A DNA stretch of 64,000 bases from Gordonibacter sp. Marseille-P4307. Lineage in GTDB: Bacteria; Actinomycetota; Coriobacteriia; Coriobacteriales; Eggerthellaceae. Numbering within the stretch: position 1 is the first letter of the stretch; the number at the start of each line of letters is the position of its first letter. The position numbers and the translations under genes are program-made. Below are positions 4,151-40,425 of this stretch, one piece after another. The notes beneath the pieces are model-generated. The model was not told the origin of the DNA. It made no database searches and worked only from the letters and a program-made list of their open reading frames with translations. The stretch spans positions 186,001-250,000 of the forward strand of contig NZ_UWPD01000001.1 of the NCBI RefSeq assembly GCF_900604965.1, written 5' to 3'.

Positions 4151-4222
4151 TTCCTCTCCTCTTCCTTTCTCCATGCGTTCTGCCCGAACGCTCCCTTCCA
4201 TAGGTAATCTGGGAATCCGCAC

Positions 4223-4228
4223 ATTATA
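4223..4228 (-). promoter_or_regulatory. Consensus -10 box for the NSS symporter
   Basis: Minus-strand TATAAT matches the sigma-A -10 consensus exactly and lies about 75 bp before the chosen symporter start. No good -35 hexamer is visible 16-18 bp upstream. The asnB promoter should lie in the same 176 bp divergent gap; a TATCAT at 4270-4275 on the plus strand is a weak -10 candidate. Confidence 0.45.
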
Positions 4229-4326
4229 GCGACTTTGCATAGAGGAAACACCGGCTAATGGTATTCGGCTATCATTAATCCGCTAACGACAAAAACTCGA
4301 ACCCCCAGGGCAAGGAGAGCGGTCTC

Positions 4327-6285: not shown

Positions 6286-6286
6286 C

Positions 6287-6901: not shown

Positions 6902-6904
6902 CGC

Positions 6905-7876: not shown

Positions 7877-7885
7877 CGAAGCCCC

Positions 7886-9752: not shown

Positions 9753-9771
9753 GATAGGCGCCCCGTTTCGC

Positions 9772-11394
9772 CTACCAGGTCCACCGGTCGATGTTGTTGG
9801 CAAACGACCAACCATGACCGTGCGGATGGGGCTTCTGGGGCGCTATATGGAGGCCTTCGCGCACGAAGTACAGATGGTCGATGTTCGCCAACCAGACCCA
9901 AGCCGCCTCGCCCTGCGGGGCGAACCCCTGAGAGCCATCCCACTGCGCAAGTTTCCAGTACTCGAACGACGCTTCGACGTTGGGCTGCGCGAGCGCAGCG
10001 TCGAGATAGGCGTCGCATGCCTCGCTGACATAGCCGGCGTAGTTCCCCTCGCTGGTCGAGCGATACAGGCTGTTCGTCTCGAGAGGGCTGTTGGTGCCCC
10101 ATCCCCACACAACGGGATCAGAGTATCCGTGGGCGAAGATCTCGTCCCAGTCGGTTCCGCGCAGGTTCACCGCGATACCCAGGTCTTTCATCTGGTTGGC
10201 GAACTCGTTCGCAAACGATTGGCGCACCTTGTCGTTGGCCGGGTAGAACAGATCGAACGCGGCCCGCACGCCGTCCTTCTCCAGAACGCCGTCCGCGCCC
10301 GCCGACCATCCGCCCGAAGCGAGGATCTCCTTCGCGTACGCGACGTCGGTTTTGCACTTCATGTCGTCAGACGACCAGGGCATCCCGTCGCCGACACTGT
10401 ACGCGACCGAGCCGTAGCCGTTCAGGATGTTGTCGACGAACTTCTGACGGTCCAGTCCGTAGTTGATGGCCCGTCTGATGGAAAGATCGCACGTCACCGC
10501 GTTGCCAACCGGATAAACCGCTCCATCCTCCGCCGTCTTGCTGGTACCGGGAGCGGTCATCGGCAGCGAGATGCCGCGCGAGTCGACCGACGAATAGTGC
10601 TCGAGCGAATAGCCGGGCACCGTCGCTCCGGACAGCACCGCCGATGTGTAGGCAACGTCCACCTTGCCCGACTGCACGGCGGCCAACGCGGCATCTTCTT
10701 CCATGAACAAGACGACAACGCGCTCGATCTTCGGAGCCTCGCCGTAGTAGCCGGGGTTTGCCACCAGTATGGCCTGCTGGCCCTTATCCCACTGCTCCAG
10801 CTTGTAGCGTCCCGAACCGATCGGGTTGGAACCGTAATCGGCTCCGTACGCATGCTGGGGAACGATGCCGATGGTCGCAACAAGGTACAGCAAGGCGTTG
10901 AACGGCTTGTTCAGTGAGAACACCGCAGTCTGGTCGTCGGGGGCCGACACCTCCTTGACAAACGACAGATCAACCTCGGATTCAGCCGTGTTCATGATGG
11001 TGTTGAAGGTGAAGGCGACATCGCGAGCCGTCAGGGGCTTGTCGTCAGTGAACTTCACGTCGCTGCGAATCTTGAACTCCCACGACAAGCCATCCGAAGA
11101 TACGGCATACGACGTGGCAAGATCGTTTTGGAACGCAAGCTTCTCATCGGTTGTAACCAGAGTCGATTGGATCAGCGGCTCGTGACCGTGTCCGCCGTCT
11201 CCCCATCCCCTGATCGGATCGAAGCCCGCCTCGGGCTCGGACCCAACCGGCATCGCCATGACAACCTGTTTATTCTCCGTAACCTCGCCCGATGAAGACG
11301 AACGGGACGACCCACAGGCGGAAAGCAGACCGCCCGCCGAAACCGCGGCAGCCGCAATTCCCGACATCTTCACAAACCCACGCCTCGTAAGCAT
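9772..11394 (-). CDS. Family 5 extracellular solute-binding lipoprotein (peptide/nickel-type)
   Basis: Substrate-capture protein of the importer, 540 aa. The N-terminus has a twin-arginine motif (TRRGFVK, residues 3-9), a hydrophobic segment and a lipobox LLSAC ending at about Cys27, so it should be exported folded and lipid-anchored. The rest is a typical SBP_bac_5 fold. The extreme C-terminus has the histidine-rich run KPHPHGHGW. The order binding protein-B-C-D-E equals nikABCDE and dppABCDF. Nickel is therefore a possible substrate, fitting the NiFe hydrogenase elsewhere in the window, but peptides or other ligands cannot be excluded. Confidence 0.9.
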   Translation of the reverse strand: MLTRRGFVKMSGIAAAAVSAGGLLSACGSSRSSSSGEVTENKQVVMAMPVGSEPEAGFDPIRGWGDGGHGHEPLIQSTLVTTDEKLAFQNDLATSYAVSSDGLSWEFKIRSDVKFTDDKPLTARDVAFTFNTIMNTAESEVDLSFVKEVSAPDDQTAVFSLNKPFNALLYLVATIGIVPQHAYGADYGSNPIGSGRYKLEQWDKGQQAILVANPGYYGEAPKIERVVVLFMEEDAALAAVQSGKVDVAYTSAVLSGATVPGYSLEHYSSVDSRGISLPMTAPGTSKTAEDGAVYPVGNAVTCDLSIRRAINYGLDRQKFVDNILNGYGSVAYSVGDGMPWSSDDMKCKTDVAYAKEILASGGWSAGADGVLEKDGVRAAFDLFYPANDKVRQSFANEFANQMKDLGIAVNLRGTDWDEIFAHGYSDPVVWGWGTNSPLETNSLYRSTSEGNYAGYVSEACDAYLDAALAQPNVEASFEYWKLAQWDGSQGFAPQGEAAWVWLANIDHLYFVREGLHIAPQKPHPHGHGWSFANNIDRWTW

Positions 11395-17705: not shown

Positions 17706-19880
17706 ATGAATGAGATTGAAACCGATTCGCCGATAGAGGAACCCCCTCGTACCGACACAATCAAACCTTCTGCAACAACCTTTGGCCCCGCGCATCGGAC
17801 AACCGATAGGGTCCGCACGGCGAAAAGCCGCAAACCCCGCATCGGGCTTGCGCTCGTCGCCCTGGGGGTGGTGTACGGAGATATCGGAACCAGCCCGCTG
17901 TACGTGATGAAGGCGATCGTGAACGGCAACGGCGGGATCGAATCCCTCTCCGAGCAAACCGTGATCGGCGCGCTCTCCCTGATCATCTGGACCGTCACGC
18001 TCATCACCACCGTCAAATACGTGCTCGTCGCGCTCAATGCCGACAACAAGGGCGAGGGAGGCATATTCGCCCTCTACAGCTTGGTGAGGAAGCACTGTCC
18101 CCAACTCGTCGGCCTCGCCATCGTGGGGGGTGCGGCGCTTCTAGCCGACGGAATCCTCACGCCCGCGGTCACCATCACCACCGCCGTGGAGGGCCTGCGC
18201 ACCGTCGGGCCCGTCGCACCGTTCTTCGAAGGAGGGCAGGCCCACGTGGCTCTGGTGGCCATCGGTATCATCGCTATCCTGTTCGGCGTGCAACGGGCCG
18301 GCACCTCCGCCATCGGAGGCGTGTTCGGAATCGTCATGACGTGCTGGTTCGGTTTTCTGGGAATCGCGGGTGCCGTCCAGTTGGCCGGATGCCCCTCGGT
18401 GCTGGCAGCCGTCAATCCGATGCACGCGATCGCGTTCGTCTTCTCGCCGGACAACCATGCAGGACTCATGATCCTCGGCAGCGTCTTTCTCGCAACGACC
18501 GGCGCCGAGGCGCTCTACTCCGACATGGGCCATGTGGGCAAAGCGAACATTTACGCCTCGTGGCCGATCGTCAAAACTTGCCTGATCCTGTGCTACCTCG
18601 GACAAGGAGCGTGGCTCGCGTCGAACATCGGCAATGCGGAGATCGCCGCCGTTGCAGATATGAATCCCTTCTTCCAGATGCTCGACCCGTCGGTGCGCCC
18701 CTTATCGGTGGGTCTGTCGACGGCGGCGGCCATCATCGCCAGCCAGGCGCTCATCACCGGTTCGTTCACCCTCGCATCCGAAGCCATGCGCCTCGACCTC
18801 ATGCCGCATCTGCACCTCAAATACCCCTCGCAGGCAAAGGGCCAGGTATACATCCCCCGTATCAATCTGATGCTGGCGATCGGATGCATAGCCGTCGTTT
18901 TGTTCTTCAAATCATCCAGCGCCATGGAAGCCGCCTACGGTCTTGCGATCACCGTAACCATGCTGATGACCACCGCTCTTATGGGCGTCTATCTGTGGAA
19001 GCTCCGAGGGCTCCGGATTGCGGCCGCGGTGTTCGTCGCGACGTTCGCCTCGCTTGAAACGGGATTCTTCCTATCAAGCCTCTCGAAGTTTCCCCATGGC
19101 GGCTACATCACCGTCGCCATCGCCGCCGTGCTGGCCTACGTCATGGTCGTATGGCAGCGCGGCACGGCAATAGAGCGAAGCCAGGCCAACCTTTTGCCTC
19201 TGGCGCGCTACAAAGCCCAGATCGGCAGGCTTTCGGAAGATGCACGGCTACCTCTGACAGCCGACAACCTCGTCTACATCACCAAACCCGGGCGCATGGG
19301 CAAGATCGACCGCGACGTCCTGTATTCTATCCTCGACAACCGACCCAAACGAGCGCGGGCGTACTGGCTGGTCGATATCGTGGTCACCGACGATCCGTTC
19401 GAGCGCAGCTACGCGGTAGAGAGCTTCGGAACCGACTATCTGTTCCGCGTGCGCCTGAACCTGGGGTACAAATGCGGTCAGTTCGTGGACGAGTACCTTC
19501 ACCAGATCATGGGCGATTTGATAGAGGCCGGAGAACTCCCCCTCCAGCAGCGCTCTTACTCGGTGTTCCGCAGGCCCAACCCCGTGGGAAGCGTGAGGTT
19601 CTGCTTCCTCAGGAAGTATGCGACCTCGAATAGAACCCTCAGCAACATCGACCGGTTCGTCATCAACTCAAAGTACGCCATCAGGCACCTCTGCGGAACC
19701 CCGATGCGCTGGTACGACCTTCAGGGAAGCTCGGTCGACATCGAGTACGTCCCCCTCTTCGGCCCTGCGCACCGGGCTGAAAAACTCTCACGCCAAAGCA
19801 TCAAGCGCAGCCAGCTGTGTCCTGAGGCGATCAGCTCAGCGCCGCACCAATCGCCCCGGCAAAACGCGCCCGAGGGGTAG
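17706..19880 (+). CDS. kup: Low-affinity potassium transporter Kup
   Basis: KUP/HAK/KT family K+ uptake protein, probably K+/H+ symport, 724 aa. It has about twelve hydrophobic segments from residue 45 to about 500 and a soluble C-terminal domain. The signature GDIGTSPLYV is at residues 58-67 and DNKGEGGIFALYSLV near 115. The ATG at 17706 follows GGGAGATCGAGACG. The protein is longer than E. coli Kup (622), mainly by a hydrophilic N-terminal tail of about 45 residues. A TATAAC at 17664-17669 is a candidate -10. I looked for a c-di-AMP (ydaO-type) riboswitch in the 294 bp leader and did not see one. The 3' end overlaps the convergent activase gene by 50 bp. Confidence 0.93.
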   Translation: MNEIETDSPIEEPPRTDTIKPSATTFGPAHRTTDRVRTAKSRKPRIGLALVALGVVYGDIGTSPLYVMKAIVNGNGGIESLSEQTVIGALSLIIWTVTLITTVKYVLVALNADNKGEGGIFALYSLVRKHCPQLVGLAIVGGAALLADGILTPAVTITTAVEGLRTVGPVAPFFEGGQAHVALVAIGIIAILFGVQRAGTSAIGGVFGIVMTCWFGFLGIAGAVQLAGCPSVLAAVNPMHAIAFVFSPDNHAGLMILGSVFLATTGAEALYSDMGHVGKANIYASWPIVKTCLILCYLGQGAWLASNIGNAEIAAVADMNPFFQMLDPSVRPLSVGLSTAAAIIASQALITGSFTLASEAMRLDLMPHLHLKYPSQAKGQVYIPRINLMLAIGCIAVVLFFKSSSAMEAAYGLAITVTMLMTTALMGVYLWKLRGLRIAAAVFVATFASLETGFFLSSLSKFPHGGYITVAIAAVLAYVMVVWQRGTAIERSQANLLPLARYKAQIGRLSEDARLPLTADNLVYITKPGRMGKIDRDVLYSILDNRPKRARAYWLVDIVVTDDPFERSYAVESFGTDYLFRVRLNLGYKCGQFVDEYLHQIMGDLIEAGELPLQQRSYSVFRRPNPVGSVRFCFLRKYATSNRTLSNIDRFVINSKYAIRHLCGTPMRWYDLQGSSVDIEYVPLFGPAHRAEKLSRQSIKRSQLCPEAISSAPHQSPRQNAPEG

Positions 19881-20631
19881 TATGCACCGGAGCCCCCAGG
19901 TGAGCCGATAGGCGCTCGACCACGTAATCGTTCTCGCACAGACCGCCGGTCAGATAGTATTCGCCGCTGCGCAGCTGGCCTACAAGCGAGCTCACGCGAC
20001 TTACCACCGATTCGATGATCCCGTTGGCGATGTTTTCCAACGGCTCCCCCCGGCCGATCAGGGACACCACTTCGGAATCGGCGAACACCGTGCACACGTT
20101 GGTGATCGGGGTGGGCTGCCCCGCCCGCGCAAGTTCGGACAGCGTCGGCTGGGATACGCCCATGCGATCGGCCATGAGTTCGAGGAACTTGCCCGTGCCC
20201 GACGCGCACTTGTTGTTCATCACGAACTTTCTCACCTTGCCATCGGCTATCTGGATGATCTTGGTGTCCTGACCGCCCACGTCGATAACCGTCCCGTCGG
20301 CGCCGAACAGGTGCACCGCGCCCCGCGCATGGCAGGTGATCTCGGTCAGGGTGCGCGCCGCATACGGAACCGACACGCGGCCGTAGCCGGTGGCCACCAC
20401 ATCGCTGCCCTCGACCGCGTACCCACGCGCTTCGAGCTCGCGCGCAACGCGCTCGGACGCATCGACACTGCTGAAACCCGTCGGCGTCAGAAACGCCTCG
20501 ATCAGCCTGCCTTCGTCCATAACCGCCACCTTCGTCGCGGTCGATCCGATGTCGATACCGATAGATGCCGTTTTCAGCCGAGGTTCATCCGCTTTCCTAG
20601 GCAAGCTCGCGCGCGATCTCTTCAAGTGCAC
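19831..20631 (-). CDS. 2-hydroxyacyl-CoA dehydratase activase / double-cubane protein reductase (HgdC/YjiL-like)
   Basis: ASKHA-fold ATPase that injects low-potential electrons into a partner iron-sulfur protein with ATP hydrolysis. Visible motifs are the phosphate-binding GIDIGSTATK (residues 25-34), DVGGQDTK, and the two cluster-ligating cysteines in NNKCASGTG (Cys142) and NVCTVFADSE (Cys180). Their spacing of 38 matches known activases, which form a homodimer bridging one [4Fe-4S] cluster. 266 aa with the GTG at 20631, overlapping the NifS-like gene by 35 bp; a TTG at 20604 is an alternative nearer the conserved start. Last gene of the operon with the double-cubane protein, DUF3343 and the cysteine desulfurase. 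Confidence 0.9.
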   Translation of the reverse strand: MHLKRSRASLPRKADEPRLKTASIGIDIGSTATKVAVMDEGRLIEAFLTPTGFSSVDASERVARELEARGYAVEGSDVVATGYGRVSVPYAARTLTEITCHARGAVHLFGADGTVIDVGGQDTKIIQIADGKVRKFVMNNKCASGTGKFLELMADRMGVSQPTLSELARAGQPTPITNVCTVFADSEVVSLIGRGEPLENIANGIIESVVSRVSSLVGQLRSGEYYLTGGLCENDYVVERLSAHLGAPVHTTPRARFAGAIGAALS

Positions 20632-21742
20632 CTACCCCCTCGTCGATCTCTTCTTCCGTGTTGAAATGCGAGAAGCTGAAGCGAACCACTCCCCGATCGG
20701 ACGTCCCCAAAGCCTCGTGCATGAGGGGTGCGCAGTGGGCGCCCGCCCGCGTGCAGATACCGAAATCAGCGTTCAGGCGATCGGCGACGAGCGCCGAGTC
20801 GGCCCGACCCACATTCAACGCAACGATACCGCATCGCGCAGCATCGGGGGAGCCCCCGTAGACGCAAACGCCGTCGATCCGGGATACGGCCTCCTCGAAG
20901 CGACGAGCAAGGCTCCTGACCCGCGCGCCGACCGCTTCGATTCCCGCTTCCTCGAGATAGGCCGCACCGGCCGCAAGCCCCGCAAGCCCATGAGCGTTCA
21001 GGGTTCCCGCCTCGAGACGTTCGGGCATGAACGACGGATGGACGCGATCGTAGCTGTGCGTACCCGATCCCCCTACGCGATACGACGGAATCTCGAGCGC
21101 GGAGGAAAGGGCGATTCCTCCCGTCCCCTGGGGACCGAACAGGCTCTTGTGCCCCGTGAACGCTACGGCGTCGAAACCGTCTTCTTGCAGGTGGATCGGA
21201 ATCGCGCCGGCAGTTTGGGCTGCATCGAGCACGAACAGCGCGCCGTGGTCGTGGGCGATGCGCGCCATGCGGCGGACATCGTAGACGTTGCCCGTGACGT
21301 TAGACGCATGAGTGGCCACCACCAGAACCGTTTCGGGACGAAACAGCTTCTCGTAGGTCTTAATGTCAAGGGAGCCGTCAGGCGCGATGGGGGCGATCGA
21401 CAACGAGGCGCCATCGCGATCGACCTTGCGGTACAGCGGCCTGAGAACCGAGTTATGTGACGCGGCCGTGGTGATCGCATGCGAACCCGGAGGGAGCAGA
21501 CCCTCGATGGCGGCGTTCAGCGCATCGGTGGCGTTGCAGCCGAACGCCACGCGACCCGCGCTCTGCGCCCCCAAAAGGCGGGCGATCGTTGCACGGGCCT
21601 CGTACACCGCCAAAGACGACGCGATCGAAGCCTCGTGAACGCCGCGTGCCGGACCGCCGAACGACTCGAGGGCGCGCACCACCGCCTCGGCTACCGACGG
21701 CGGCTTCATCAACGTGGTCGCCGCGTTATCGAAATAGATCAT
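20597..21742 (-). CDS. Cysteine desulfurase family protein (class V aminotransferase, TIGR01977-like)
   Basis: PLP enzyme of the NifS/SufS fold, 381 aa, starting MIYFDNAATT. The PLP lysine is Lys199 in FTGHKSLFGPQGTGG and the candidate catalytic cysteine is Cys335 in CTRAGAHCAPLMH; RxGxHCAPL is typical of the TIGR01977 branch. In the family the cysteine takes sulfur (or selenium) from cysteine (or selenocysteine) as a persulfide. Comparative genomics has linked this branch with selenium metabolism and DUF3343 proteins. Here it sits 89 bp after a DUF3343 gene and overlaps the activase, which supports a dedicated S/Se donor for this operon rather than general Fe-S assembly. Confidence 0.88.
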   Translation of the reverse strand: MIYFDNAATTLMKPPSVAEAVVRALESFGGPARGVHEASIASSLAVYEARATIARLLGAQSAGRVAFGCNATDALNAAIEGLLPPGSHAITTAASHNSVLRPLYRKVDRDGASLSIAPIAPDGSLDIKTYEKLFRPETVLVVATHASNVTGNVYDVRRMARIAHDHGALFVLDAAQTAGAIPIHLQEDGFDAVAFTGHKSLFGPQGTGGIALSSALEIPSYRVGGSGTHSYDRVHPSFMPERLEAGTLNAHGLAGLAAGAAYLEEAGIEAVGARVRSLARRFEEAVSRIDGVCVYGGSPDAARCGIVALNVGRADSALVADRLNADFGICTRAGAHCAPLMHEALGTSDRGVVRFSFSHFNTEEEIDEGVGALEEIARELA

Positions 21743-21831
21743 CGAATCGTCCCTTCATCGATGGACCTCTGCGCTCCAGGTGCGCAGCACCTTGCCCCCA
21801 CTTTACCGCCTTCGGCAACGGCGTGCACGCC

Positions 21832-22140
21832 CTAGCAGTACCGGTCTCGGTACGGATCGATCTGCCGCGGAAGCGCCACGACTCCTTCAAGCGGTATGCC
21901 CCGATCATGCGCAAGCCGGCAGGCGGCAGCCGCGTCGTCGCCTCCCGCGAGAAGCGACACCCCGCAGCATGCGCGGGCCTGCCGCGGGGTCGGAGAGACA
22001 CGCACGGACAATCCCTCCGCGCGCGCCTCCCCGAATAGGGCCATCGCGTCGTTATTGCTGGAAAACAGCAGGTAGCAGTCGATCACGCGCCCTGGATGAT
22101 CCGCCCGCGCACGTTCGATCAGCTCCCCGACATCGATCAT
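21832..22140 (-). CDS. DUF3343 small protein, putative Se/S carrier
   Basis: 102 aa. The frame extends upstream into the double-cubane gene, but the ATG at 22138-22140, 1 bp after that gene's stop, gives a protein that fits DUF3343: CYLLFSSNNDAMALF near the N-terminus, then PTPRQARACCGVSL with Cys58-Cys59, and a C-terminal Cys102. The family resembles TusA/YedF-type sulfur carriers and is described as a putative Se/S carrier. The cysteine in the R..(S/C)CG motif would accept a persulfide or selenide from the adjacent cysteine desulfurase. Biochemical function is unproven, so this is family inference plus context. Confidence 0.8.
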   Translation of the reverse strand: MIDVGELIERARADHPGRVIDCYLLFSSNNDAMALFGEARAEGLSVRVSPTPRQARACCGVSLLAGGDDAAAACRLAHDRGIPLEGVVALPRQIDPYRDRYC

Positions 22141-22141
22141 C

Positions 22142-23416
22142 CTAGGCGCCCAGCATCTCGACGAAGGCCCCGATGCGCGTGCGCAGCTGCTCGGTGTCGC
22201 CGTCGGAATAGTCCGTCTCGATGTTGAGGACGGGGAATCCAGCCTCCTCGACGGCGCGTTCGAGCGCGGGACCTTCCAGCTTGTACGTCGTGCAGAACGT
22301 AAGGTTCGTATTGATGATGCCGTCGACCTGGTATTCCCGCGCAAGGCGGATAACGTCGTCGATGCGTCCGGTGTTCGGAGTGAAGCATGCGCAGTTGTTC
22401 TTCATATAACGCTCGGACAGAGCGCGGAACTGACCCTCCAGCGTCGTCTGCGTCTCGTCCACCAGGTTCTCGAAATAACGCGTGCCCGTGCACATCTCCT
22501 CGCAGACCACCACGGCACCGCACGTCTCGATGATATGGTGCAGCTTCCAGTTCGGAACCGCCAGCGGCGTTCCCGTGATAAGGATGCGCTTCGAGCCGGC
22601 CGGCATGGCGCTTACGCCCTCGGCGATGCGCTGCTCCAGTTCGTCAGCCAGTTTGTTGCACATCTCGGCACAGCGCACCGGATCGTCGAAAAACGCGATC
22701 TGCATCATCAGCAACGCATCGGTGCCGCTTATGGGGGCGACCTTGGACTTGCGGGCATCGTAGACGCGGGCGAGAGCGCGGCGCTTGTCGTTGATCACCT
22801 TGATGGCGCGACCCAGGCCCTCCGGTGTCAGCTTGCTGCCGGTAACCTCTTCGACCATAGCTGCGAAGTCTTCGATCTCGCCCGCCCACTTGACGATGTC
22901 CCTCTCTCGCTTCATCTGCGGAACGTCCATGACGTACATCGGAGCGTCGTTCGCAAGAATCTCGTAGGCCTTCTTTTTGCCATCGCACGTGGTTTCCCCT
23001 ACAAACACGTCGGCTATGCGGAAAAACGGGCAGGTGCGCCCGAGACGCGCTCCGACCGACGCCTTGATGAGAGGACACACGTCGCTGGGAAGAACCTGCT
23101 CGCCATCGGGGACCCAGAATTGGGATCCGCCGCACAGCCCCGTCACGATGCCGTTGCATGCCACAACCACCTCGTCGGGAACGTACACGCAAAACGTGCC
23201 GAACACCTTCTGGCCCCTCTTCTGCGCCTCGACCAACTCGGCGGGGCGAATGCCGTGGATGTCGGCGGTCACCATATCCCAATAGGCCATCCCGGCCGGC
23301 CGGTTATCCTGCGAAAGGAACACGTCGCCGAATGCCGTGGGAAGCACCGCACAGAGGTTATCGTGCGCTTCGAGATCCATGCCGAGTTCGGCCCACATTT
23401 CACTGCGTTCGTTCAT
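22142..23416 (-). CDS. Double-cubane cluster protein / 2-hydroxyacyl-CoA dehydratase subunit homologue (YjiM-like)
   Basis: 424 aa, HgdB/FldB superfamily. A single such subunit next to an HgdC-type activase is the arrangement of double-cubane cluster proteins (YjiM with YjiL), which hold an [8Fe-9S] cluster reduced by the ATP-driven activase and can reduce small molecules. True dehydratases need two different subunits plus a CoA substrate, and no second subunit is present here. Conserved cysteines occur in FGTFCVYVPDE, VACNGIVTGLCGG, SDVCPLIKAS, GRTCPFF and ETTCDGKKK (about residues 75-175). The ATG at 23416 follows AAAGGAGC. It is the first gene of the operon. The physiological substrate is unknown. 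Confidence 0.87.
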   Translation of the reverse strand: MNERSEMWAELGMDLEAHDNLCAVLPTAFGDVFLSQDNRPAGMAYWDMVTADIHGIRPAELVEAQKRGQKVFGTFCVYVPDEVVVACNGIVTGLCGGSQFWVPDGEQVLPSDVCPLIKASVGARLGRTCPFFRIADVFVGETTCDGKKKAYEILANDAPMYVMDVPQMKRERDIVKWAGEIEDFAAMVEEVTGSKLTPEGLGRAIKVINDKRRALARVYDARKSKVAPISGTDALLMMQIAFFDDPVRCAEMCNKLADELEQRIAEGVSAMPAGSKRILITGTPLAVPNWKLHHIIETCGAVVVCEEMCTGTRYFENLVDETQTTLEGQFRALSERYMKNNCACFTPNTGRIDDVIRLAREYQVDGIINTNLTFCTTYKLEGPALERAVEEAGFPVLNIETDYSDGDTEQLRTRIGAFVEMLGA

Positions 23417-23745
23417 TGCAGCTCCTTTTGTTGTGCCGCACGCCGCGCTGACCATATGAAATCGCCGCACGCCGCGTCAGCGGCTCGCCTGTGAATGAGA
23501 ATGCAGAAACGAGGACCCCCAAGACCCCGCGCAGAATGCCGCGCCTGCAGATGGGCGTCGGCCGGCCTTTTCCCTCTTGCGAAACTTTATCACGACTGCG
23601 ATCGGATGCACCCCGTCACTTTCATGCGCACTCCGCTTGGTCGCGTTCGATGCGTTATATTTACTTCGTCTGTCGCACCGAAGCGCAGCGAGACGACGCA
23701 TCGGAGGCGCGCGAGCGCTGCGCTAACGCCTGCAAAAGGAGCCCC
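23417..23745. promoter_or_regulatory. Divergent intergenic region between the double-cubane operon and the LRR gene
   Basis: 329 bp without a gene I can support. It contains an exact 13-bp direct repeat, GCCGCACGCCGCG, at 23435-23447 and 23464-23476 (29 bp apart) in what should be the leader of the minus-strand operon. A TATATT at 23656-23661 is a plausible -10 box for the LRR gene. No riboswitch or small RNA was recognised. Confidence 0.35.
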
Positions 23746-24498
23746 ATGGATTTCTACAAGATGGTGTTTGCCGAGTACTCAGGCATGAACTCCTGCGTAC
23801 GGATTCCCATCGGAGCCACCCATATCGGCCCGGGCGCGTTCCAGCGCAACCGCTACGTGCACGAAGTGGTCATTCCCGAAGGCGTGGTCGAGATCGAAGA
23901 CGAAGCCTTCGACGCCTGCGTGAACCTCGAAGTCGTCTGCCTCCCTTCGACGCTGAGGCGCATCGGAAGGCGCGCTTTCAAGGGCTGCTGGCGCATCGAC
24001 AGCATCCAGCTGCCCAAGGAGCTTGAAGTTATCGATGATCAGGCGTTTCTTAGGTGTCGCGGACTGAATTCGATCGAGCTTCCCCCCAGCGTGACCGCCA
24101 TAGGCAAGGAGGCGTTCCGGAACTGCGTGTGCCTGAGATCCATCGCGTTTCCCCCGTGCCTCGCCACTGTCGAAGTCGGCGTCATGCGCGATTGCATGAC
24201 ACTTGAAGACGTGTCGCTTCCTTCCGACCTCGAGGTGATCGAGGACGACGCATTCAACACCTGCCCCAGCTTGGTGGAGGTAAACCTCCCTCCCAACCTG
24301 GGGTGGATCGGGCAGCGGGCGTTTCGCGCGTGCGGGGCGCTGAAGCGCATCAACATCCCCGCAGGCGTGCGCTCGCTTGAAGAGCGGGTATTCTACGGAT
24401 GCCGCGTGCTACATGACATCGAGCTGCACGACGGTATCGAGTACGTGGACGAGACCGCCTTCGACCCGGATGCCGACCCTTTTGCCGAAAAGCCCTAA
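23746..24498 (+). CDS. BspA-like leucine-rich repeat protein (LRR_5), cytoplasmic
   Basis: 250 aa built almost wholly of BspA-type leucine-rich repeats of about 23 residues. Repeat units share the pattern I..xAFxxC..L..I.LP..l..I, for example AFKGCWRIDSIQLPKELEVI and AFNTCPSLVEVNLPPNLGWI; I count about eight to nine units. I placed the start at the ATG at 23746 because AAAAGGAG lies just upstream; the open frame reaching to 23491 would add an arginine-rich tail of doubtful reality. There is no signal peptide, membrane anchor or wall-binding repeat, unlike typical secreted BspA adhesins. It is probably a cytoplasmic protein-interaction scaffold. Function is unknown. Confidence 0.75.
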   Translation: MDFYKMVFAEYSGMNSCVRIPIGATHIGPGAFQRNRYVHEVVIPEGVVEIEDEAFDACVNLEVVCLPSTLRRIGRRAFKGCWRIDSIQLPKELEVIDDQAFLRCRGLNSIELPPSVTAIGKEAFRNCVCLRSIAFPPCLATVEVGVMRDCMTLEDVSLPSDLEVIEDDAFNTCPSLVEVNLPPNLGWIGQRAFRACGALKRINIPAGVRSLEERVFYGCRVLHDIELHDGIEYVDETAFDPDADPFAEKP

Positions 24499-26757: not shown

Positions 26758-27291
26758 TTACGCCGCAGACTCGAACCGACTGAAATCCCCTCCTTCCCGC
26801 ACGCACTGCGCTATCGACTCGATAGCCGATACGACCTCGGGAGACAACGGGTCGAAGAACTCGGTTGAGCGCACTTGAACACCCAGGAAGACGATATCGG
26901 AGCAGTATTGGGCCATCCGATTCAGAAGAAAGGTAACCGGAAGGCTGTGCGTGGTGAACAGAAACCTGTCGGCCACGTCGCCCACAGATATCCGCCTGAC
27001 GGCTCCGACTTCCACGCCCATCTGGGCGGCATCGACGAACAGCACGCGTGCGGGAGCGACCTCGCGGATGTAGTACAGATCATCTTCGGGAGTCTGCCCC
27101 CCATCGACAACCTCCCAGCCCGGCACCGGATCGTCCTCCAGCATCTTGGCGAGCATCGGGCCGGCGGCATCGTCGCCGCGCAGCACGCTGCCCGCCGTGA
27201 ACACGATGTTGCGCTCAAACCCGTCTGCAGGCGCGTCCTTCCCTTCAGGCGCATTGCGGCGCGTCTTGCCACCATCCGGCGCTTCGCTCAT
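26758..27291 (-). CDS. hycI: Hydrogenase maturation endopeptidase (HycI family)
   Basis: Nickel-dependent protease that trims the C-terminus of the hydrogenase large subunit after the NiFe site is built. 177 aa. The family pattern is clear: GSVLRGDDAAGP (first nickel-ligand aspartate), VDGGQTPEDD, FVDAAQMG (second aspartate) and TTHSLP (histidine). The N-terminal about 28 residues are an extra charged tail. The ATG at 27291 overlaps the hycH stop by one base with AGGAGGGG just upstream. Its substrate should be HyfG, whose C-terminal tail is present in this operon. Confidence 0.92.
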   Translation of the reverse strand: MSEAPDGGKTRRNAPEGKDAPADGFERNIVFTAGSVLRGDDAAGPMLAKMLEDDPVPGWEVVDGGQTPEDDLYYIREVAPARVLFVDAAQMGVEVGAVRRISVGDVADRFLFTTHSLPVTFLLNRMAQYCSDIVFLGVQVRSTEFFDPLSPEVVSAIESIAQCVREGGDFSRFESAA

Positions 27292-27785
27292 CAACCCCTC
27301 CTAACCATGAGGTAGACATTCGTCTCATCCCTCACTTTAAGCAGCAGATCAATCAGCCCGACCAGATAATCGAGCTCGCCAACCTCAAGCGGAAGACTGG
27401 TCTTGCCCGGCGCATCGTACACATCGATGGTCGACAGCGCCAAGCGGGCGGCGGGAAGGAGCACGCCAATGTGCTCCTTCCCGATCTCGATCTCGCCGAA
27501 CCTGAACACACCCTCCAGTTTACGACGCGCGTCGTCTTTCTCGAAGAGTGCCGCGATCCTGCGGTAGCTTTCAACGGGAACCGCAAGCGCACGCTCGAAG
27601 CAATCCACAACCCCGGTATGGTGCCCGACGGACAAGGTGTAGTACAGCACGTCCTGAGCGTCGTCGGGAATCGCCTCCGCCCGATCGACGAACTTCATGC
27701 GCAGCAGGTAGAACACGATATGGTCCCCCGACGTGCCGATGGACTCCATGCGGTTTTCCCCAGCCTTGTAATCAGCGGTTGCCAT
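27291..27785 (-). CDS. hycH: Formate hydrogenlyase maturation protein HycH/HyfJ
   Basis: 164 aa homologue of E. coli HycH (136 aa), a chaperone-like protein needed for maturation of the formate hydrogenlyase large subunit. Recognised by VLYYTLSVGHHTGVVDCFERAL, closely matching the HycH core, by RRKLEGVFRFGEIEI, and by the C-terminal NVYLMVRRG. The start overlaps the hyfI stop by one base (TAATG). A short internal insertion (about residues 110-135) makes it longer than HycH. Position between hyfI and hycI equals hyfJ in the E. coli hyf operon. Confidence 0.9.
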   Translation of the reverse strand: MATADYKAGENRMESIGTSGDHIVFYLLRMKFVDRAEAIPDDAQDVLYYTLSVGHHTGVVDCFERALAVPVESYRRIAALFEKDDARRKLEGVFRFGEIEIGKEHIGVLLPAARLALSTIDVYDAPGKTSLPLEVGELDYLVGLIDLLLKVRDETNVYLMVRRG

Positions 27786-28570
27786 TACGCGATGCTCACG
27801 ATCCTTTTCTCCAGAATATCCTTCAGTTCGGCGAAGATCTCCACTTTGCGCGGATCGTCCTCGGCGCGTATCAGCCCGTCAACCGACGCAAGCACGTCGC
27901 CCGACGACGGATCGAGCGCATCCATGAACCGGTTGACCAAATCGCGCCCGTACCGGTAACCCGCCAGCTTCCGCGCCTCGCGTTCCAGCTCGACCTTCAG
28001 CTTGTAGGGCACGTCGCCATGCAGGATGGGAGCCTGCTCGCCCTCTCCCTCCACCAGATGGGTCTCATGGAGCTTCTGGCCCAGAAGGCCCAGCGCGATG
28101 GCGAACCCGTAGATGGTCTGCGCGGGGGAAGGCGGGCAACCCGGAATGTAGACGTCCACCGGCATGAGCTTGTCCGTGCCGCCCCACACGCAGTAGTTGT
28201 CGTGGAAGATCCCGCCCGTGCACCCGCAGGCGCCGTAGGATACGATCAGCTTGGGATTGGGCGCGGCCTCGTAGGCGCGCATCGCCGGAAGGCGCATCGC
28301 GCGCGTTACCGCGCCCGTGTACACCAAGATGTCGGCATGGCGCGGGCTGGCCATGTTCTTGATGCCGAACCGCTCGGTATCGAACACCGGCGTGATGGTG
28401 CCGAAGATCTCGATCTCGCACCCGTTGCACCCTCCGCAGTCGACGCGGTAGATGTAGACAGAGCGCTTGATCTTGCCCAGCAAAGCCGCCTTAGCCTCTT
28501 GGATCTTGGCGTCCAGCTCGATGGGTTCGAGCCGGGTCTGCAAGCGCTCGGGAAGCACCAGTTCACTCAT
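27785..28570 (-). CDS. hyfI: Hydrogenase-4 small subunit HyfI (NuoB/HycG-like)
   Basis: Small electron-transfer subunit of the NiFe hydrogenase, 261 aa, close to HycG (255). The single proximal [4Fe-4S] cluster ligands are visible: CGGCNGCEIEI (residues 45-55), GACGCTGGIF near 115 and PGCPPSP near 145. It lacks a twin-arginine signal, as expected for a cytoplasm-facing group 4 hydrogenase. Its start overlaps hyfH by one base. It pairs with HyfG and is analogous to NuoB in complex I. Confidence 0.94.
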   Translation of the reverse strand: MSELVLPERLQTRLEPIELDAKIQEAKAALLGKIKRSVYIYRVDCGGCNGCEIEIFGTITPVFDTERFGIKNMASPRHADILVYTGAVTRAMRLPAMRAYEAAPNPKLIVSYGACGCTGGIFHDNYCVWGGTDKLMPVDVYIPGCPPSPAQTIYGFAIALGLLGQKLHETHLVEGEGEQAPILHGDVPYKLKVELEREARKLAGYRYGRDLVNRFMDALDPSSGDVLASVDGLIRAEDDPRKVEIFAELKDILEKRIVSIA

Positions 28571-29106
28571 TATCTGCCTCCTTCAGCACGGGCGGCGGCC
28601 AGGGCGCTCACCGCATCGGCGCGGCGCTTGCACTCGGGGCACACGCGCGCGACTTCGATGGACTCGTCGGCTTCGGCGTTGCCCTCCAAAGTAGCCAGCA
28701 CGCGACAGGCGTAATCCACCTGTTTGCGCGGAGCGAAGTAGCGACCGCACTCCGAGCAGCACTCGAGGGCGTAGGTTGCATCCTCGGTGAGGTCGGACTT
28801 GCTCATAACGGCAAGCTCGAACTCGTCTCCCAACCTGATGGCCTCGACGGGACAGGCTTCTTCGCACCGACCGCAGAATATGCAGCGACCGTAGTCGATG
28901 GACCAGGTAATCGTACCAGCTTTCAAATCGGTCGCCATCTGGATGGCGTTGGGCGGGCAGGCGACGGCACAAGCGGCGCATGCGATGCAGCGTTCGAGGT
29001 CGTGCTCGGGTTTGCCGCGGAAATCGGGTACGGTCTCCAAGGGGGCGAAGGGGTACTTGACCGTCGCGTCCCCGGTTTTGAATGCGTTGCGCAGTGTTTT
29101 GAGCAT
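28570..29106 (-). CDS. hyfH: Hydrogenase-4 ferredoxin-like subunit HyfH (NuoI/HycF-like)
   Basis: 178 aa. It starts MLKTLRNAFKTGDATVKYPFAPLETVPDFRGKP, the typical HycF/HyfH N-terminus (first part shown only in summary form here: TVKYPFAPLE). Two [4Fe-4S] motifs, CIACAACAVACP and CIFCGRCEEACP, are followed by a C-terminal zinc- or cluster-like set, CCSECGRYFAP and CPECKRRAD. It carries electrons from FdhF/HyfA-type clusters toward HyfI. It begins 10 bp after hyfG. Confidence 0.94.
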   Translation of the reverse strand: MLKTLRNAFKTGDATVKYPFAPLETVPDFRGKPEHDLERCIACAACAVACPPNAIQMATDLKAGTITWSIDYGRCIFCGRCEEACPVEAIRLGDEFELAVMSKSDLTEDATYALECCSECGRYFAPRKQVDYACRVLATLEGNAEADESIEVARVCPECKRRADAVSALAAARAEGGR

Positions 29107-29116
29107 ATCCGATCAC

Positions 29117-30847
29117 CTAATCCTTCAGCGGCGAGTGGGTGCGCCTCAAGCAATAGGACTCGAGCTGCGACTTGCTTACGGTTTTCTCGGTGCCCTTCTT
29201 CACGTCCACGAACGTCACGCGGTCGGTGCACGAATAGCACGGATCCATCGAACCTACGATCAGGGCTGCGTCGGAAACGGTGTTGCCACGGAACATGTAG
29301 CGCAGGATGGGCCAGTTGCTGTATGTAGCCGCCTTGCAGCGCCAGCGGTAGCACTTCTGGTTGTCACCGATCTGCGCCCAGTGAACGTCCTCGCCGCGCG
29401 GGGCCTCGGTATAGCCGATGGCGAACCTATGCGGCTCGTACTTCCAATCCTCGTTGAGGATGGCACCTGCGGGCAGGTTCTCAAGCCACCACTCGACCAT
29501 TGCCACCGAGTCCATGAACTCCTCGATGCGCACGAGGGTACGGCTCATGACGTCGCATCCATCGTGGCCGCGAGCCTTGAACAGGCCCTGGATGTCCCTG
29601 TACCCGTCATAGGGATGGTCGAAGCGCACATCGCGCGAGAACCCCGAACCGCGCACGCACGGGCCCACCGGGCTGAACGCACGTGCGATCTTGGGATCGA
29701 GCCTGCCGACGCCCTTGGTGCGGTCCTCGAAGTTGGGCGTACTCATCAGCTCGTCCAGAAGACTCTTCACATCGTCGCGCAGCTTGCGGATAACCCGCAG
29801 CGTCTCGGCCCTGCGATCCTCCAGAATGTCGCGGCGCACGCCTCCGATAAGGTTCAAACCGTAGGTCTTGCGATGACCGGTAAGAAGCTCGGCAAGGCGC
29901 ATCGAATCCTCGCGCACGCGGAAGAAGTGCATGAACCCGGTGTCGAAGCCGCTGTAGTGGCACACGAGGCCCAGGTTCAGCAGATGAGAGTGCATGCGCT
30001 CGACCTCGAGCGAGATGGCCCTGATGTATTGGGCGCGCAGGGGAACAGCGATGCCCTGCGCATGCTCGACCGACTCGGCGTAAGCCACCGAGTGGGCGTT
30101 TCCGCAGATACCGCAGACGCGGTCGGCCAGAAATGTGACGGCATCGTAGTTCATGCGCGACTCGGCCACCTTCTCCATACCGCGATGGACGTAGAACAGG
30201 CGGTAGTCGGCATCGATGATGTGCTCGCCTTCCACGAACAGGCGGAAGTGCCCCGGCTCGTCGGAGGTGACATGCAAGGGACCCATGGGCACGACGGTGG
30301 TTTCTCGGTCGCCCGTTTCGGCAAGGAACTCGTAGTTTTCGACTTCGCTCGCGATCATGGGCCGCTGACGGTAGTCCATGGAATCCTTACGCAGCGGGTA
30401 CAGGTCGTCCGGCCAGTCGTCGGGCAGCACCAGACGACGCTGGTCGGGAAGGCCAACGGGACGCAGGCCGAACATATCGCGCACCTCGCGCTCGGACCAC
30501 ACGCACGCCGGGACGCGTGGCGTAACCGAGGGGAACTCGCAGGTATCGGCGGGCACCTCGACACGAACGACGCACCAGCAGCGGTCTTCTTCCTCCATCG
30601 AGAGGATGTAGTACAGAGCGTAGTTTCCGTTCAAGGAACGCTCGTCGTTGCCCACCATCATGGGCAGCCAGCCGCCGCGGCCGAAATACAGGAACTCGAC
30701 CACATCCGGCAGGGAATCGAGGGCGACCGTGATGGTCACCTGGTCGTCGCACTGCCATTCGGCGGACTTGAGAACCCCCGGGAACCTCTCGGACACGGCC
30801 TGCACATGCGTCGTTCCGGGGCGCGCGGGTGTGATTACGTTATCCAT
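29117..30847 (-). CDS. hyfG: Hydrogenase-4 large subunit HyfG (NuoC-NuoD/HycE-like)
   Basis: NiFe catalytic subunit, 576 aa. Residues 1 to about 165 are a NuoC-like domain; the rest is NuoD/hydrogenase-like. The four NiFe-ligand cysteines are Cys245 and Cys248 (RVCGICGNAHS) and Cys537 and Cys540 (DPCYSCTDR). A 33-residue tail follows Arg543, the expected HycI cleavage site, so the protein should need maturation before activity. All four cysteines mark it as a true hydrogenase rather than a complex I subunit. It has an AGGAGG ribosome site and starts just after hyfF. Confidence 0.96.
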   Translation of the reverse strand: MDNVITPARPGTTHVQAVSERFPGVLKSAEWQCDDQVTITVALDSLPDVVEFLYFGRGGWLPMMVGNDERSLNGNYALYYILSMEEEDRCWCVVRVEVPADTCEFPSVTPRVPACVWSEREVRDMFGLRPVGLPDQRRLVLPDDWPDDLYPLRKDSMDYRQRPMIASEVENYEFLAETGDRETTVVPMGPLHVTSDEPGHFRLFVEGEHIIDADYRLFYVHRGMEKVAESRMNYDAVTFLADRVCGICGNAHSVAYAESVEHAQGIAVPLRAQYIRAISLEVERMHSHLLNLGLVCHYSGFDTGFMHFFRVREDSMRLAELLTGHRKTYGLNLIGGVRRDILEDRRAETLRVIRKLRDDVKSLLDELMSTPNFEDRTKGVGRLDPKIARAFSPVGPCVRGSGFSRDVRFDHPYDGYRDIQGLFKARGHDGCDVMSRTLVRIEEFMDSVAMVEWWLENLPAGAILNEDWKYEPHRFAIGYTEAPRGEDVHWAQIGDNQKCYRWRCKAATYSNWPILRYMFRGNTVSDAALIVGSMDPCYSCTDRVTFVDVKKGTEKTVSKSQLESYCLRRTHSPLKD

Positions 30848-30856
30848 GATCGCCTC

Positions 30857-32446
30857 CTAGCTATGACGCACGGTGGAAGATCCGGGCGCCGAGGCGCCCT
30901 GATCGGGATTGAAAAGCTGATCGAACAGCGGCACGTCGCGAAGGACCGCGCCATCGTCTTGCAAGACGATGGCCGTCGCATCCTCGATGCCGTTGAGCAC
31001 CGGTTGGGGCATGGCGATGCCGAACCATAGGATCAGGCACACCAGCGCCGCTTCCGGAACGAGGGCCAACGGGCTGACGTCGCCCTTCTCCATACCCTCG
31101 GGAACCTTGCCGAACACCGCTCTATGCACGACCTGAGAGAACGCGGCAACCACGATGGTCAGAGCGGCTGCCATGACAGCTACAACGACCCAGTGATCTC
31201 CCTGGATACCCGAAACGATGCCGACGATCTCGGATACGAACATCGCGAATGGAGGAAATCCTGAAAGCGCGAACAATCCGATGGAAAGGATGACGGCACT
31301 TGCGGGCATGACCTTCACCATGCCGCTGATCCTGTTGAGATCGCGTGTCCCGTACTTCATCACGATATTGCCCGATGCACAGAACGCAAGCGCTTTCGTG
31401 AAACCGTGCGCGACGCAGTGTATAAGCGCCGCCGCAACTCCAAGGGGGCCGCCGAATCCGAGAAAAAGCGCCACGATACCCACGTTCTCACACGAGCTGT
31501 ATGCAAGCTTCCGCTTGATATCGTCCTGGGAGAATACGGCGAGCGCCGCCATGCACACCGAGACGATGCCCACGATCAGCATAACCGTCTGCGGGAACCA
31601 CGGACCGACCGCCTGGATCGCCAGAACGTAGAAGCGCATGATGATGAGCATCGCGCACTTCAGGAGGACGCCCGACAGAAGGCCCGACACGGGGCTGGGA
31701 GCCTCTGAGTGGGCGTCGGGAAGCCAGGTGTGCATGGGGAACAGACCGGCCTTCGTGCCGAAGCCGATGGCGGCGAACACGAACGCGATCTGCACCAGCG
31801 CGCCGTCGAGCTGCGCGGCGTAGGGCACGACGGAGGTCCACAGGACCGCCTCGTGCGCGTTTGCCATCACATCGGCGGCGTTAGCATAGATGAGCACCGT
31901 GCTGTACAGGCCGAACGCGACGCCGGCCGTGCAGACCACCACGTATTTCCACGCGGCTTCCAGCGAGAGCTTGGCGTCGTAGGCGCCCACCAGAAACACG
32001 GTGGACAGCGTTGTGGCCTCGATACCCACCCACATCAGGATGATGTTGTTGGAGGCAGCGACCACCAGCATGGTGAACAGGAACAAGCTGAAGAACACGT
32101 AGAACTGCTTGACGCGGGCGGGCGCCATATGGCCCGCTTCGACGTCGTGGCGAATGTAGGGTATCGAGTAGATGCCCGTCAGGCATCCGATCACGCCGAT
32201 GAGCGCGACGAACACGCTTCCCAGCGCATCGAGATGCAGCCAGAGGCCGAAAGCGTCGATGGAGCGCCCCGATGAGAACACCTGGGCGACCACGTACAAC
32301 GACAAAACCAGTACGGCGACGATGGATGCGACGTGAATCGCCTCGTACACCGGGCGCGGAACGGCCTTGGAAGGCAGAACCGCCATCAGAAGCGCGAAGA
32401 GCAGCGGGGCCGCGATCAGCGTCGTCAAAAGCGATGCGTAATCCAT
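30857..32446 (-). CDS. hyfF: Hydrogenase-4 membrane subunit HyfF (antiporter-like)
   Basis: NuoL/M/N-type proton-translocating antiporter-like subunit, about 529 aa, with about fourteen hydrophobic segments. Landmarks are the TM5-like glutamate in WVGIEATTLS, the TM7 lysine in GTKAGLFPMHTWLPDAHSEAPSP, and DIKRKLAYSSCENVG. Two ATGs are six bases apart; the second (32446, MDYASLL) has better spacing to GGGGG and is preferred. It is the third antiporter-like subunit of this complex, after HyfB and HyfD. Confidence 0.93.
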   Translation of the reverse strand: MDYASLLTTLIAAPLLFALLMAVLPSKAVPRPVYEAIHVASIVAVLVLSLYVVAQVFSSGRSIDAFGLWLHLDALGSVFVALIGVIGCLTGIYSIPYIRHDVEAGHMAPARVKQFYVFFSLFLFTMLVVAASNNIILMWVGIEATTLSTVFLVGAYDAKLSLEAAWKYVVVCTAGVAFGLYSTVLIYANAADVMANAHEAVLWTSVVPYAAQLDGALVQIAFVFAAIGFGTKAGLFPMHTWLPDAHSEAPSPVSGLLSGVLLKCAMLIIMRFYVLAIQAVGPWFPQTVMLIVGIVSVCMAALAVFSQDDIKRKLAYSSCENVGIVALFLGFGGPLGVAAALIHCVAHGFTKALAFCASGNIVMKYGTRDLNRISGMVKVMPASAVILSIGLFALSGFPPFAMFVSEIVGIVSGIQGDHWVVVAVMAAALTIVVAAFSQVVHRAVFGKVPEGMEKGDVSPLALVPEAALVCLILWFGIAMPQPVLNGIEDATAIVLQDDGAVLRDVPLFDQLFNPDQGASAPGSSTVRHS

Positions 32447-32456
32447 AATCATCCCC

Positions 32457-33110: not shown

Positions 33111-33122
33111 GGTATCCACCCC

Positions 33123-34583: not shown

Positions 34584-34601
34584 ATTCGCTTCCACCTCCC
34601 C

Positions 34602-35531: not shown

Positions 35532-35542
35532 TTCGCACCTCC

Positions 35543-38154: not shown

Positions 38155-38172
38155 GTTTACTCCTCATCCCTT

Positions 38173-38205: not shown

Positions 38206-38214
38206 GTGCGGCGC

Positions 38215-40425
38215 CTAGGCCATGACGACTTCGGCTTGGCGAGAGGAACGAGCTTGGCCAGGTTCGATGTCCTGAGCTGCGGCGGTATTAGCCAGATCGC
38301 TCTTCAGCTCGTCGTACATCTCCTGGAGCCTGCGCTCGGCCCATACCTGGTCCTCGATGGCTTCCACCTGGCAGGCACTGAACTTGTCCTCGGGCGTATG
38401 CGAGCGCGGATCGGTCGCATGGAGCGTGAGGTTGTTGCACTTGCCAATCCACCACTGGTAGGTCATGTAGACCGTGCCCTTGTTGATGCGCTCGTCGAGG
38501 ACCGCGCGGCTCATCGCCTCGCCGCGCCGCGAGTGGGCGCGCACCAGCTCGCCGTCGCCGATGCCGCGCACAGACGCATCGTCGGGATGGATGTGGATCT
38601 CGCCCGGTTCTTCGGCCAGCAGGGACAGGGCGCGGCAGTTGCCCGTCATCGAGCGGCAGGAGTAATGGCCGACCTCGCGCACCGTGCACAGGATGAGCGG
38701 GTACTCGTCGTCGGGAAGCTCGGTAGGGGGCTCCCAATCGTGGGCCATAAGCAGCGCATGCTGGTCGGGGGTGGTGAACTTGCCGCCCAGGAACATGTCG
38801 GGCGTGCCCGGATGCTCGATCGTGGGGATCGGCCACTGGGCGTGCCCCACGCCGGCCATCTTCTCGTAGGTGGCGCCGTAGAACGTCGGGCACAGTTCGC
38901 GCACTTCGTTCCAGATCTCCTCGGTGTCGTTGTAGTGCATGGGGTATCCCATGCGCGTCGAGAGGTCCTGGAAGATCTCCCAGTCGTGACGGCACTCGCC
39001 CTTAGGGGGAACTGCGGCCGTGAAGCGCTGGAAAGTACGGTCGGACGCAGAGAACACGCCGTCGTGCTCGCCCCACGACGTACCCGGAAAGATGACGTCG
39101 GCAAGCATCGTAGTCTGCGTCATGAAGATGTCCTGGCAGATGAATAGATCAAGCATACCCAGCTGACGCGCCAGATCGATGGCGTCGGGCTCGGTCTGCA
39201 GGGGATCTTCGCCGAAGTTGTAGAACGCGTGGACCTTGCCCTCTTCGGCAAGATGGCCCACGTCGGTGAGCTTGTAGCCCTCGTGGTCGGACAGCTGCTC
39301 GACCGGAACGTTCCAAGCCTTCGCGAACTTCTCGCGGGCCGCGGGATCGGTGACCTTCTGGTAACCCGGATAGAGGTTGGGCAGCATGCCCATATCGCAC
39401 GAGCCCTGGACGTTGTTCTGGCCGCGCACGGGAGCAAGACCGGCGTTGGGTTTTCCGATCTGCCCGGTGATGCAGGCGATCGCCGCGATGGTGTGGACCG
39501 TGGGGACGTTCTGCTTCTGCTGGGCGACGCCCATGCCCCATCCGATAATCGAGGTTTCGGCGGTGGCGTAGATGCGGGCGGCCTCGTGGATGCGCTCCGC
39601 GGGAATGCCGGTGATGTGCTCGACCGACTCGGGAGTGTAGTTCTTGATGGTCTCCCACCACTCGTCGAACCCATGCGTGTGCTCCGCGATGAATTCCTTG
39701 TTGTGGAGACCCTGATTAACGATGGAGTTTGCAAACGCGTTCAAGAACGCGATGTTGCAGCCGTTGTTAATCTGAAGGTGCATGTCCGCGATGCGGGCCG
39801 TTTCGATAACGCGCGGGTCGCAGACGATGATCTTTGCGCCCTTCTCCTTCGCCTTGACGATGCGGCGGGAGACGATGGGGTGCGATGCGCTCGGGTTGTA
39901 CCCGAACAGCATGATGCATTTTGCTTCTTCCATGCCCGGAATGCTGACGCTCATGCAACCGGAGCCAACTGTGTCCATCAGACCGATGACAGTGGGACCG
40001 TGTCAAGTACGGGCGCAGTTATCGATATTGTTCGTACCGATGCATGCGCGGGTGAACTTCTGCATCACGAAGTTCGCTTCGTTTCCGGGACCACGGGAAG
40101 AACCTGTGAGCATAATCGAGTCGGGACCGTATTTCTCTTTGATCTCCAGCAGCTTCTTCGCCGTGAAATCAAGTGCCTCGTCCCACGTCACACGCTCGAG
40201 ATCCGCTCCTTTGGTGCGGCGGATCATCGGGTGGTAGATACGCGGGGTCAAGATTTTGGTGTCGTTGATAAAGTCGAATCCGTGCAGGCCCTTCAAACAC
40301 AGCTCGCCTTGATTGGTGATGCCGTCGAGACCTTCGGCAGCGACCACCTTTCCGCTGTCGTCAACAACGAGGTCAAGTTTGCAGCCGGCCCCGCAATACG
40401 GGCAGACCGCCATATGCCTCTCCAT
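38215..40425 (-). CDS. fdhF: Formate dehydrogenase H, selenocysteine-containing
   Basis: Molybdopterin formate dehydrogenase of the formate hydrogenlyase complex. It is 736 residues with an in-frame TGA at 40003-40005 read as selenocysteine 141 (E. coli FdhF Sec140). The context NCART-U-HGPTVIGLMDTVGS matches the FdhF active site, where the following histidine is also catalytic. The [4Fe-4S] cluster is bound by CPYCGAGC near residue 8 and LCLKG near 42. Downstream of the TGA the reading frame continues with full FdhF similarity, for example FGYNPSASHPIVSRRI and VRGQNNVQGSCDMG. The ATG at 40425 has AAGGAGGGG upstream. An apparent break at the TGA is recoding, not a frameshift. Confidence 0.96.
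39968..40005 (-). promoter_or_regulatory. UGA selenocysteine codon plus bacterial SECIS hairpin in fdhF
   Basis: On the minus strand the TGA (40003-40005) is followed, 9 nt later, by a hairpin spanning 39993 to 39968. ACTGT pairs with ACAGT, CATC pairs with GATG, a 3-nt bulge lies on the 3' side, and the apical loop is GGTCT. The distance, two-part stem and GGUCU loop equal the SelB-binding element of E. coli fdhF. Confidence 0.9.

Follow-up and report, generated by a model that had tools for sequence, protein, structure and literature searches.

The double-cubane-cluster protein (DCCP) of Carboxydothermus hydrogenoformans and its reductase (PDB 6ENO, 7YYL and 7YZM) have their fold, family, cysteine set and activase partner in common with a protein encoded in the window (the whole 64,000-nucleotide stretch of DNA analysed here), although 6ENO falls outside the clade of the window protein and lacks three of its cysteines, C22, C249 and C305. 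DCCP reduces small molecules with ATP, and its physiological role was stated in 2025 to be unknown; TudS, which is related to this reductase family but has a single domain, has been described as a sulfur-transferring Fe-S enzyme (PMC11971306). The form in which selenium reaches SelD, and its donor, were stated in 2026 to be incompletely elucidated (PMC13188914). A neighbourhood of the kind described here is already known, since it was listed by Lin et al. (2015), whose main text proposes that DUF3343 traffics Se or S and whose Table 1 groups Slackia heliotrinireducens genes for an activase, a Sec-lyase family protein, YedF and an HGD-D protein as functionally linked; as far as that main text goes, the reductase is left unexplained, with no role given to the HGD-D/activase pair, and the terminal cysteine of DUF3343 is not described (PMC5322559). 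The Slackia selenium cluster, as given there, resembles the window locus in its activase, DUF3343, Sec-lyase family protein, YedF and HGD-D near SelD, but the window operon itself lacks YedF and SelD, which lie about 110 kb away on the same contig. Among the open-access papers searched, none was found that links a double-cubane protein to selenium.

Escherichia coli K-12 carries a related set, yjiM-yjiL-ytiA, which like the window encodes a DCCP-type protein, an activase and a DUF3343 protein on one strand. YjiM, however, belongs to a separate short DCCP branch and the window DCCP lies elsewhere in the tree; YtiA ends in SPR, with no terminal cysteine, and no desulfurase gene adjoins the set. 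We note that YtiA of strain MG1655 (set at L160:5669-7851) is recognized as a DUF3343 protein at 48.9 bits (cut-off 25), and that the literature on E. coli ytiA, judged by titles and abstracts, seems to deal with a like-named ribosomal protein gene. The yjiM and yjiL genes were seen to change together with formate hydrogenlyase genes in a study of YgfI, which gave them no function. A further comparison is offered by Enterococcus faecalis SclA (NF040779), which belongs to the same class-V desulfurase branch, TIGR01977, as the window desulfurase, and also comes from a selD-linked operon.

The window operon, which belongs to a gut-type anaerobe, runs on the minus strand from 23416 to 19831 and contains the four genes that a sequence-only reading had proposed (a double-cubane protein, DUF3343, a NifS-like desulfurase and an activase), all intact and co-directional. 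Its features are as follows.

22142..23416, minus strand: DCCP, double-cubane-cluster anaerobic reductase, 424 aa (NF040772, 6eno, AlphaFold model, cysteine set)
21832..22140, minus strand: DUF3343 / Se_S_carrier protein, subtype with a C-terminal cysteine (ends YRDRYC), 102 aa (PF11823)
21835..21837, minus strand: codon of the DUF3343 terminal cysteine, C102 (read from the sequence)
21743..21831, minus strand: 89-bp gap between the DUF3343 and desulfurase genes, where YedF stands in family relatives (L148, L149, L150, L153)
20597..21742, minus strand: class-V cysteine desulfurase / selenocysteine-lyase-like enzyme, 381 aa (TIGR01977, SclA model scores)
19831..20631, minus strand: acyl-CoA dehydratase activase-type ATPase, partner of the DCCP reductase, 266 aa (TIGR00241)

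The spacing had been read as 1 bp followed by overlaps, and this is correct for the 1-bp gap between the DCCP and DUF3343 genes and for the 35-bp overlap of the desulfurase and activase genes (if the activase starts at the GTG at 20631), the sole overlap within the operon. It is wrong for the second junction, which is the 89-bp gap, and the equal production deduced from the spacing thus rested on a misread gap. The operon is bounded at its 3′ end by a convergent potassium-transporter-like gene that ends at 19880, and at the other end by a divergent gene starting near 23650; the 3′ ends of the activase and transporter-like genes overlap by 50 bp (19831-19880). A scan of 19700-23800 found no promoter-like site, and terminators at chance level.

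In a profile search the product of the first gene scores 479.6 bits against NF040772, above the curated cut-off of 350, it matches PDB 6eno with an E-value of 2.5e-142 and about 50% identity, its AlphaFold model superposes on 6eno with a TM score of 0.98, and all eight of the DCCP-invariant cysteines (C76, C95, C114, C129, C144, C309, C342 and C375) are present. A dedicated activase is encoded nearby (224.5 bits against TIGR00241, cut-off 125.4), with the cysteine motifs KCASGTGKF and NVCTVFADSE visible in its sequence. An HGD-D domain and an activase are also what an ordinary 2-hydroxyacyl-CoA dehydratase with unrelated neighbours would present, but we reject this explanation as extremely improbable: the score against the dehydratase-subunit model is 107.1 bits (cut-off 700), the DCCP cysteine set is complete, and a dehydratase would be expected to have two different subunits, whereas no second complete HGD-D subunit was found in the genome, the only other match being a domain within a long ORF that is incomplete and scores below the cut-off. 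No CoA-transferase was seen among the window gene calls, which were read by eye. The NF040772 score and the single HGD-D protein bear out the earlier view that a lone HgdB-type subunit with an ATP-driven activase is the double-cubane pattern, and the combined data support classification of the protein as a predicted double-cubane reductase with an activase partner and not as a dehydratase.

The window DUF3343 protein scores 53.0 bits against PF11823 (cut-off 25), and its internal cysteine C59 is invariant in 52 alignment rows. Its structural model has a pLDDT of 91, with the last residues the least certain, which would fit a mobile tail. The model has no PDB match at E <= 0.001, and in a fold search a common ferredoxin-like arrangement reached Z scores that were no more than middling, with UreE, CutA and Atx1 domains among the matches but none of them conspicuous. 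The desulfurase matches TIGR01977 over its full length at 376.0 bits, one bit short of the cut-off of 377, and scores 291.7 bits against the selenocysteine lyase SclA model NF040779, below its cut-off of 525; the PLP lysine is seen in FTGHKSL and a cysteine in RAGAHCAP. A separate observation concerns a locus of a Coriobacteriia MAG (L018:12099-13205), where a DUF3343 domain (44.5 bits) and FdhD (201.8 bits) are fused in a single reading frame; the locus also holds the DCCP module. No second full-length fusion of this type was found in 135 genomes of the order, and this single case is compatible with a role of DUF3343 as a chalcogen carrier.

The neighbourhood is strongly conserved among relatives, and neither of the outcomes that had been named as refuting the proposal (a lack of such conservation, or a second dehydratase subunit and CoA-transferase nearby) was encountered. 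In 78 of 80 close homologues from public genomes the next recognized gene downstream of the DCCP gene encodes DUF3343, and among the 44 loci from close DCCP homologues that have full 6-kb flanks, DUF3343 is present in 44, the activase in 38, a desulfurase of this type in 33 and all three in 29, with YedF in 22, SelD in 9, SelB in 6, SelA in 3 and YedE in 3. Gene order differs among the loci, the desulfurase and activase genes standing either before or after the DCCP gene, and this speaks for selection that keeps the genes together and against plain inheritance. Four family relatives (L148, L149, L150 and L153) have the arrangement DCCP-DUF3343-YedF-desulfurase-DUF3343-activase beside SelD and SelA, and at L159 a single-strand run (3678-10389) encodes DCCP, a second DCCP, activase, SelD, YedF, DUF3343 and desulfurase. 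The four-gene operon is thus a real, conserved module. Tandem DCCP paralogues of long and short type, as at L159:3678-10389, are found in many members of the order (L117-L131). The occasional presence nearby of YedE, a putative transporter, together with the ATP-dependent reduction of small molecules by the known DCCP (PMC11971306), brings to mind a reductase whose substrate is a small selenium species taken up by the cell (selenite, selenocyanate or an organoselenium compound), with the lyase and carrier working downstream on the product. We regard this as improbable, in that no transporter is constant in the neighbourhood and the constant partner is the DUF3343 carrier.

In addition to the internal cysteine of the family, the very last residue is a cysteine in 92 of 93 DCCP-linked DUF3343 copies (a set that includes a few genomes twice), as against 0 of 74 other DUF3343 copies of the fetched loci. 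A branch with SH-aLRT support of 100 separates the DCCPs paired with this DUF3343 from 6ENO, E. coli YjiM and the DCCPs that have no such carrier; the tree was a quick one that came with a long-branch warning, and the DUF3343-partner label needs three changes on it. Within this clade C22 and C249 are present in 39 of 39 rows and C305 in 97%, the corresponding figures for other long DCCPs being 0, 0 and 4%. A further cysteine, C344, never varies within the clade of the window DCCP but is shared by 38% of the others.

That DUF3343 directly adjoins the DCCP gene and follows one DCCP clade could also mean that the desulfurase and DUF3343 supply sulfide or selenide for building or repairing the double-cubane cluster, the substrate of the reductase being something else. 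Other DCCPs, however, including several lines near the solved enzyme (L083-L090, L093, L094 and L099), have only an activase adjoining them, so that the carrier is not generally needed for a double-cubane cluster; this explanation also leaves the link with SelD unaccounted for, and we think it quite improbable.

A survey of co-occurrence with selD, as had been proposed, was carried out. Among 179 genomes of the order, DCCP is found above the cut-off in 62, and SelD is present in 61 of these 62 as against 39 of the 117 lacking DCCP (Fisher p 9e-20), while in a second family, the Lachnospiraceae-type one of a Coprococcus comes genome (n=250), a DCCP at 63-74% identity occurs in 21 genomes, with SelD in 19 of these and in 63 of the 229 others (p 1.5e-8); both tests take genomes as independent and ignore relatedness, and their significance is accordingly overstated. 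The two main lineages nevertheless support each other. Of the 50 genomes from which the public loci come, a set with many MAGs, 47 have SelD, and in a phylum-wide sample it is present in 35 of 37 DCCP genomes as against 159 of 259. The carrier families behave similarly within the order: DUF3343 occurs in 97 of the 179 genomes, 95 of them with SelD, and YedF in 96, of which 95 have SelD. The relationship is asymmetric, in that 39 of 100 SelD genomes of the order have no DCCP, which is therefore not needed for selenium use in general. The genomic link between DCCP and selenium is strong, and selenium handling, raised earlier as a real option, gains support both from the co-occurrence with SelD and from the Sec-decoding capacity of the genome.

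Two genomes, G604 and G730 (loci L161 and L162), depart from the pattern: they have no SelD match yet keep a complete operon of DCCP, terminal-cysteine DUF3343, activase and TIGR01977 desulfurase. Their desulfurases score 430 and 444 bits against TIGR01977 and 376 and 389 bits against SclA, above the window enzyme in both cases, and below it on a profile built from the collected loci. Of all the data, these two genomes speak most strongly for sulfur being sufficient by itself, and together with the failure of the window desulfurase to reach the SclA cut-off and the existence of the DUF3343-FdhD fusion (FdhD being a sulfur-transfer protein for formate dehydrogenase) they would favour a module in which the same reaction serves sulfur physiologically, converting persulfide to sulfide for, e.g., cluster or cofactor assembly, with a selenium link that is secondary and arises through shared carriers and anaerobic life. 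The whole surveyed order is anaerobic, however, and DCCP tracks SelD at 61/62 all the same; with the physical clustering with SelD, YedF and SelA/B, this makes a primarily sulfur-serving module rather unlikely in our view.

The window does encode a selenoprotein, as had been claimed, by read-through of one in-frame TGA.

38215..40425, minus strand: selenocysteine-containing formate dehydrogenase, one in-frame TGA at codon 141 (40005-40003), with Molybdop_Fe4S4 and Molybdopterin domains

This gene forms the upstream end of a formate hydrogenlyase-like cluster (26758-40425) with hycI-/HycH-type maturation proteins, hydrogenase subunits and membrane subunits. The SelD-dependent selenium utilization set of the genome is complete (SelD, SelA, SelB and a selenoprotein); selA, selB and SelD are located at G000:C2:88-95 kb, where a YedF-like C-terminal domain and a second DUF3343 adjoin them, and a third DUF3343 lies near C2:953 kb with YedE and a SirA-like domain. 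SelD (G000:C2:93715-94647, locus L146) has an in-frame TGA near its N-terminus and so seems itself to be a selenoprotein. The YedF-like gene beside selA (L146:3547-4214) encodes only the C-terminal DsrE-like half, of 123 aa, with the second DUF3343 directly after it; no SirA-like N-terminal half was found at this place. In relatives, the selenium genes that lie elsewhere in this genome form one cluster with the module, from which the four-gene operon here seems to have become separated. A link with selenium-dependent molybdenum hydroxylases, for which yqeB had been included in the proposed survey, was rejected: the genome, which is 97.8% complete, has no TIGR03309 match, and that branch is therefore not the reason for the operon.

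The explanation that we prefer, held tentatively but quite possibly correct, is that the operon encodes a chalcogen-mobilizing reductase module mainly serving selenium, in which ATP drives the release of selenide or sulfide from a carrier, mainly for SelD. Starting from the observed genes, families, neighbourhood, SelD co-occurrence and cysteines, we infer a chemistry, an order of transfer and an acceptor. The desulfurase/lyase would take selenium (or sulfur) from selenocysteine (or cysteine) and load it as a perselenide (or persulfide) onto cysteines of the DUF3343 carrier, whose C-terminal cysteine, on a mobile tail, would present it to the DCCP. With ATP, the activase would push electrons into the double-cubane cluster, and the cluster would release selenide (or sulfide), mainly for SelD and hence for selenoproteins such as the window formate dehydrogenase. 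Because the reductase occurs, over several hundred genomes, almost only alongside SelD, it probably serves to produce selenide (or sulfide) in usable form. This selenium-serving route is supported by the DCCP/SelD co-occurrence, the neighbourhood, the terminal cysteine and the clade cysteines C22, C249 and C305, and by the presence of SelA, SelB, SelD and a selenoprotein formate dehydrogenase in the same genome. It is supported also by the independent proposal of DUF3343 trafficking in the main text of Lin et al. (PMC5322559) and by the precedent of TudS (PMC11971306); it is weakened by the SelD-less genomes G604 and G730, which keep the operon, and by a desulfurase that falls so far below the SclA cut-off. 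The earlier proposal that a persulfide or selenide is delivered to the reductase, or produced by it, is partly supported: the tie of DCCP to a Se/S carrier and a NifS-like lyase holds, while transfer could run to or from the reductase and the element could be selenium or sulfur.

Two open questions meet in this operon, the cellular job of double-cubane reductases (PMC11971306) and the form and donor of the selenium that reaches SelD (PMC13188914), and owing to the genomic link both can be put to the test with named genes, among them those of E. coli K-12, since that strain carries the related yjiM-yjiL-ytiA set. It also points to precise residues, namely the terminal cysteine of DUF3343 and C22, C249 and C305 of DCCP. 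There is a modest chance that the whole DCCP clade serves physiologically to free selenide, by ATP-driven reduction, from a DUF3343 protein dedicated to carrying perselenide, with the terminal cysteine of this carrier reaching the double-cubane site; if this were true, many anaerobes would have in the module a donor system for SelD.
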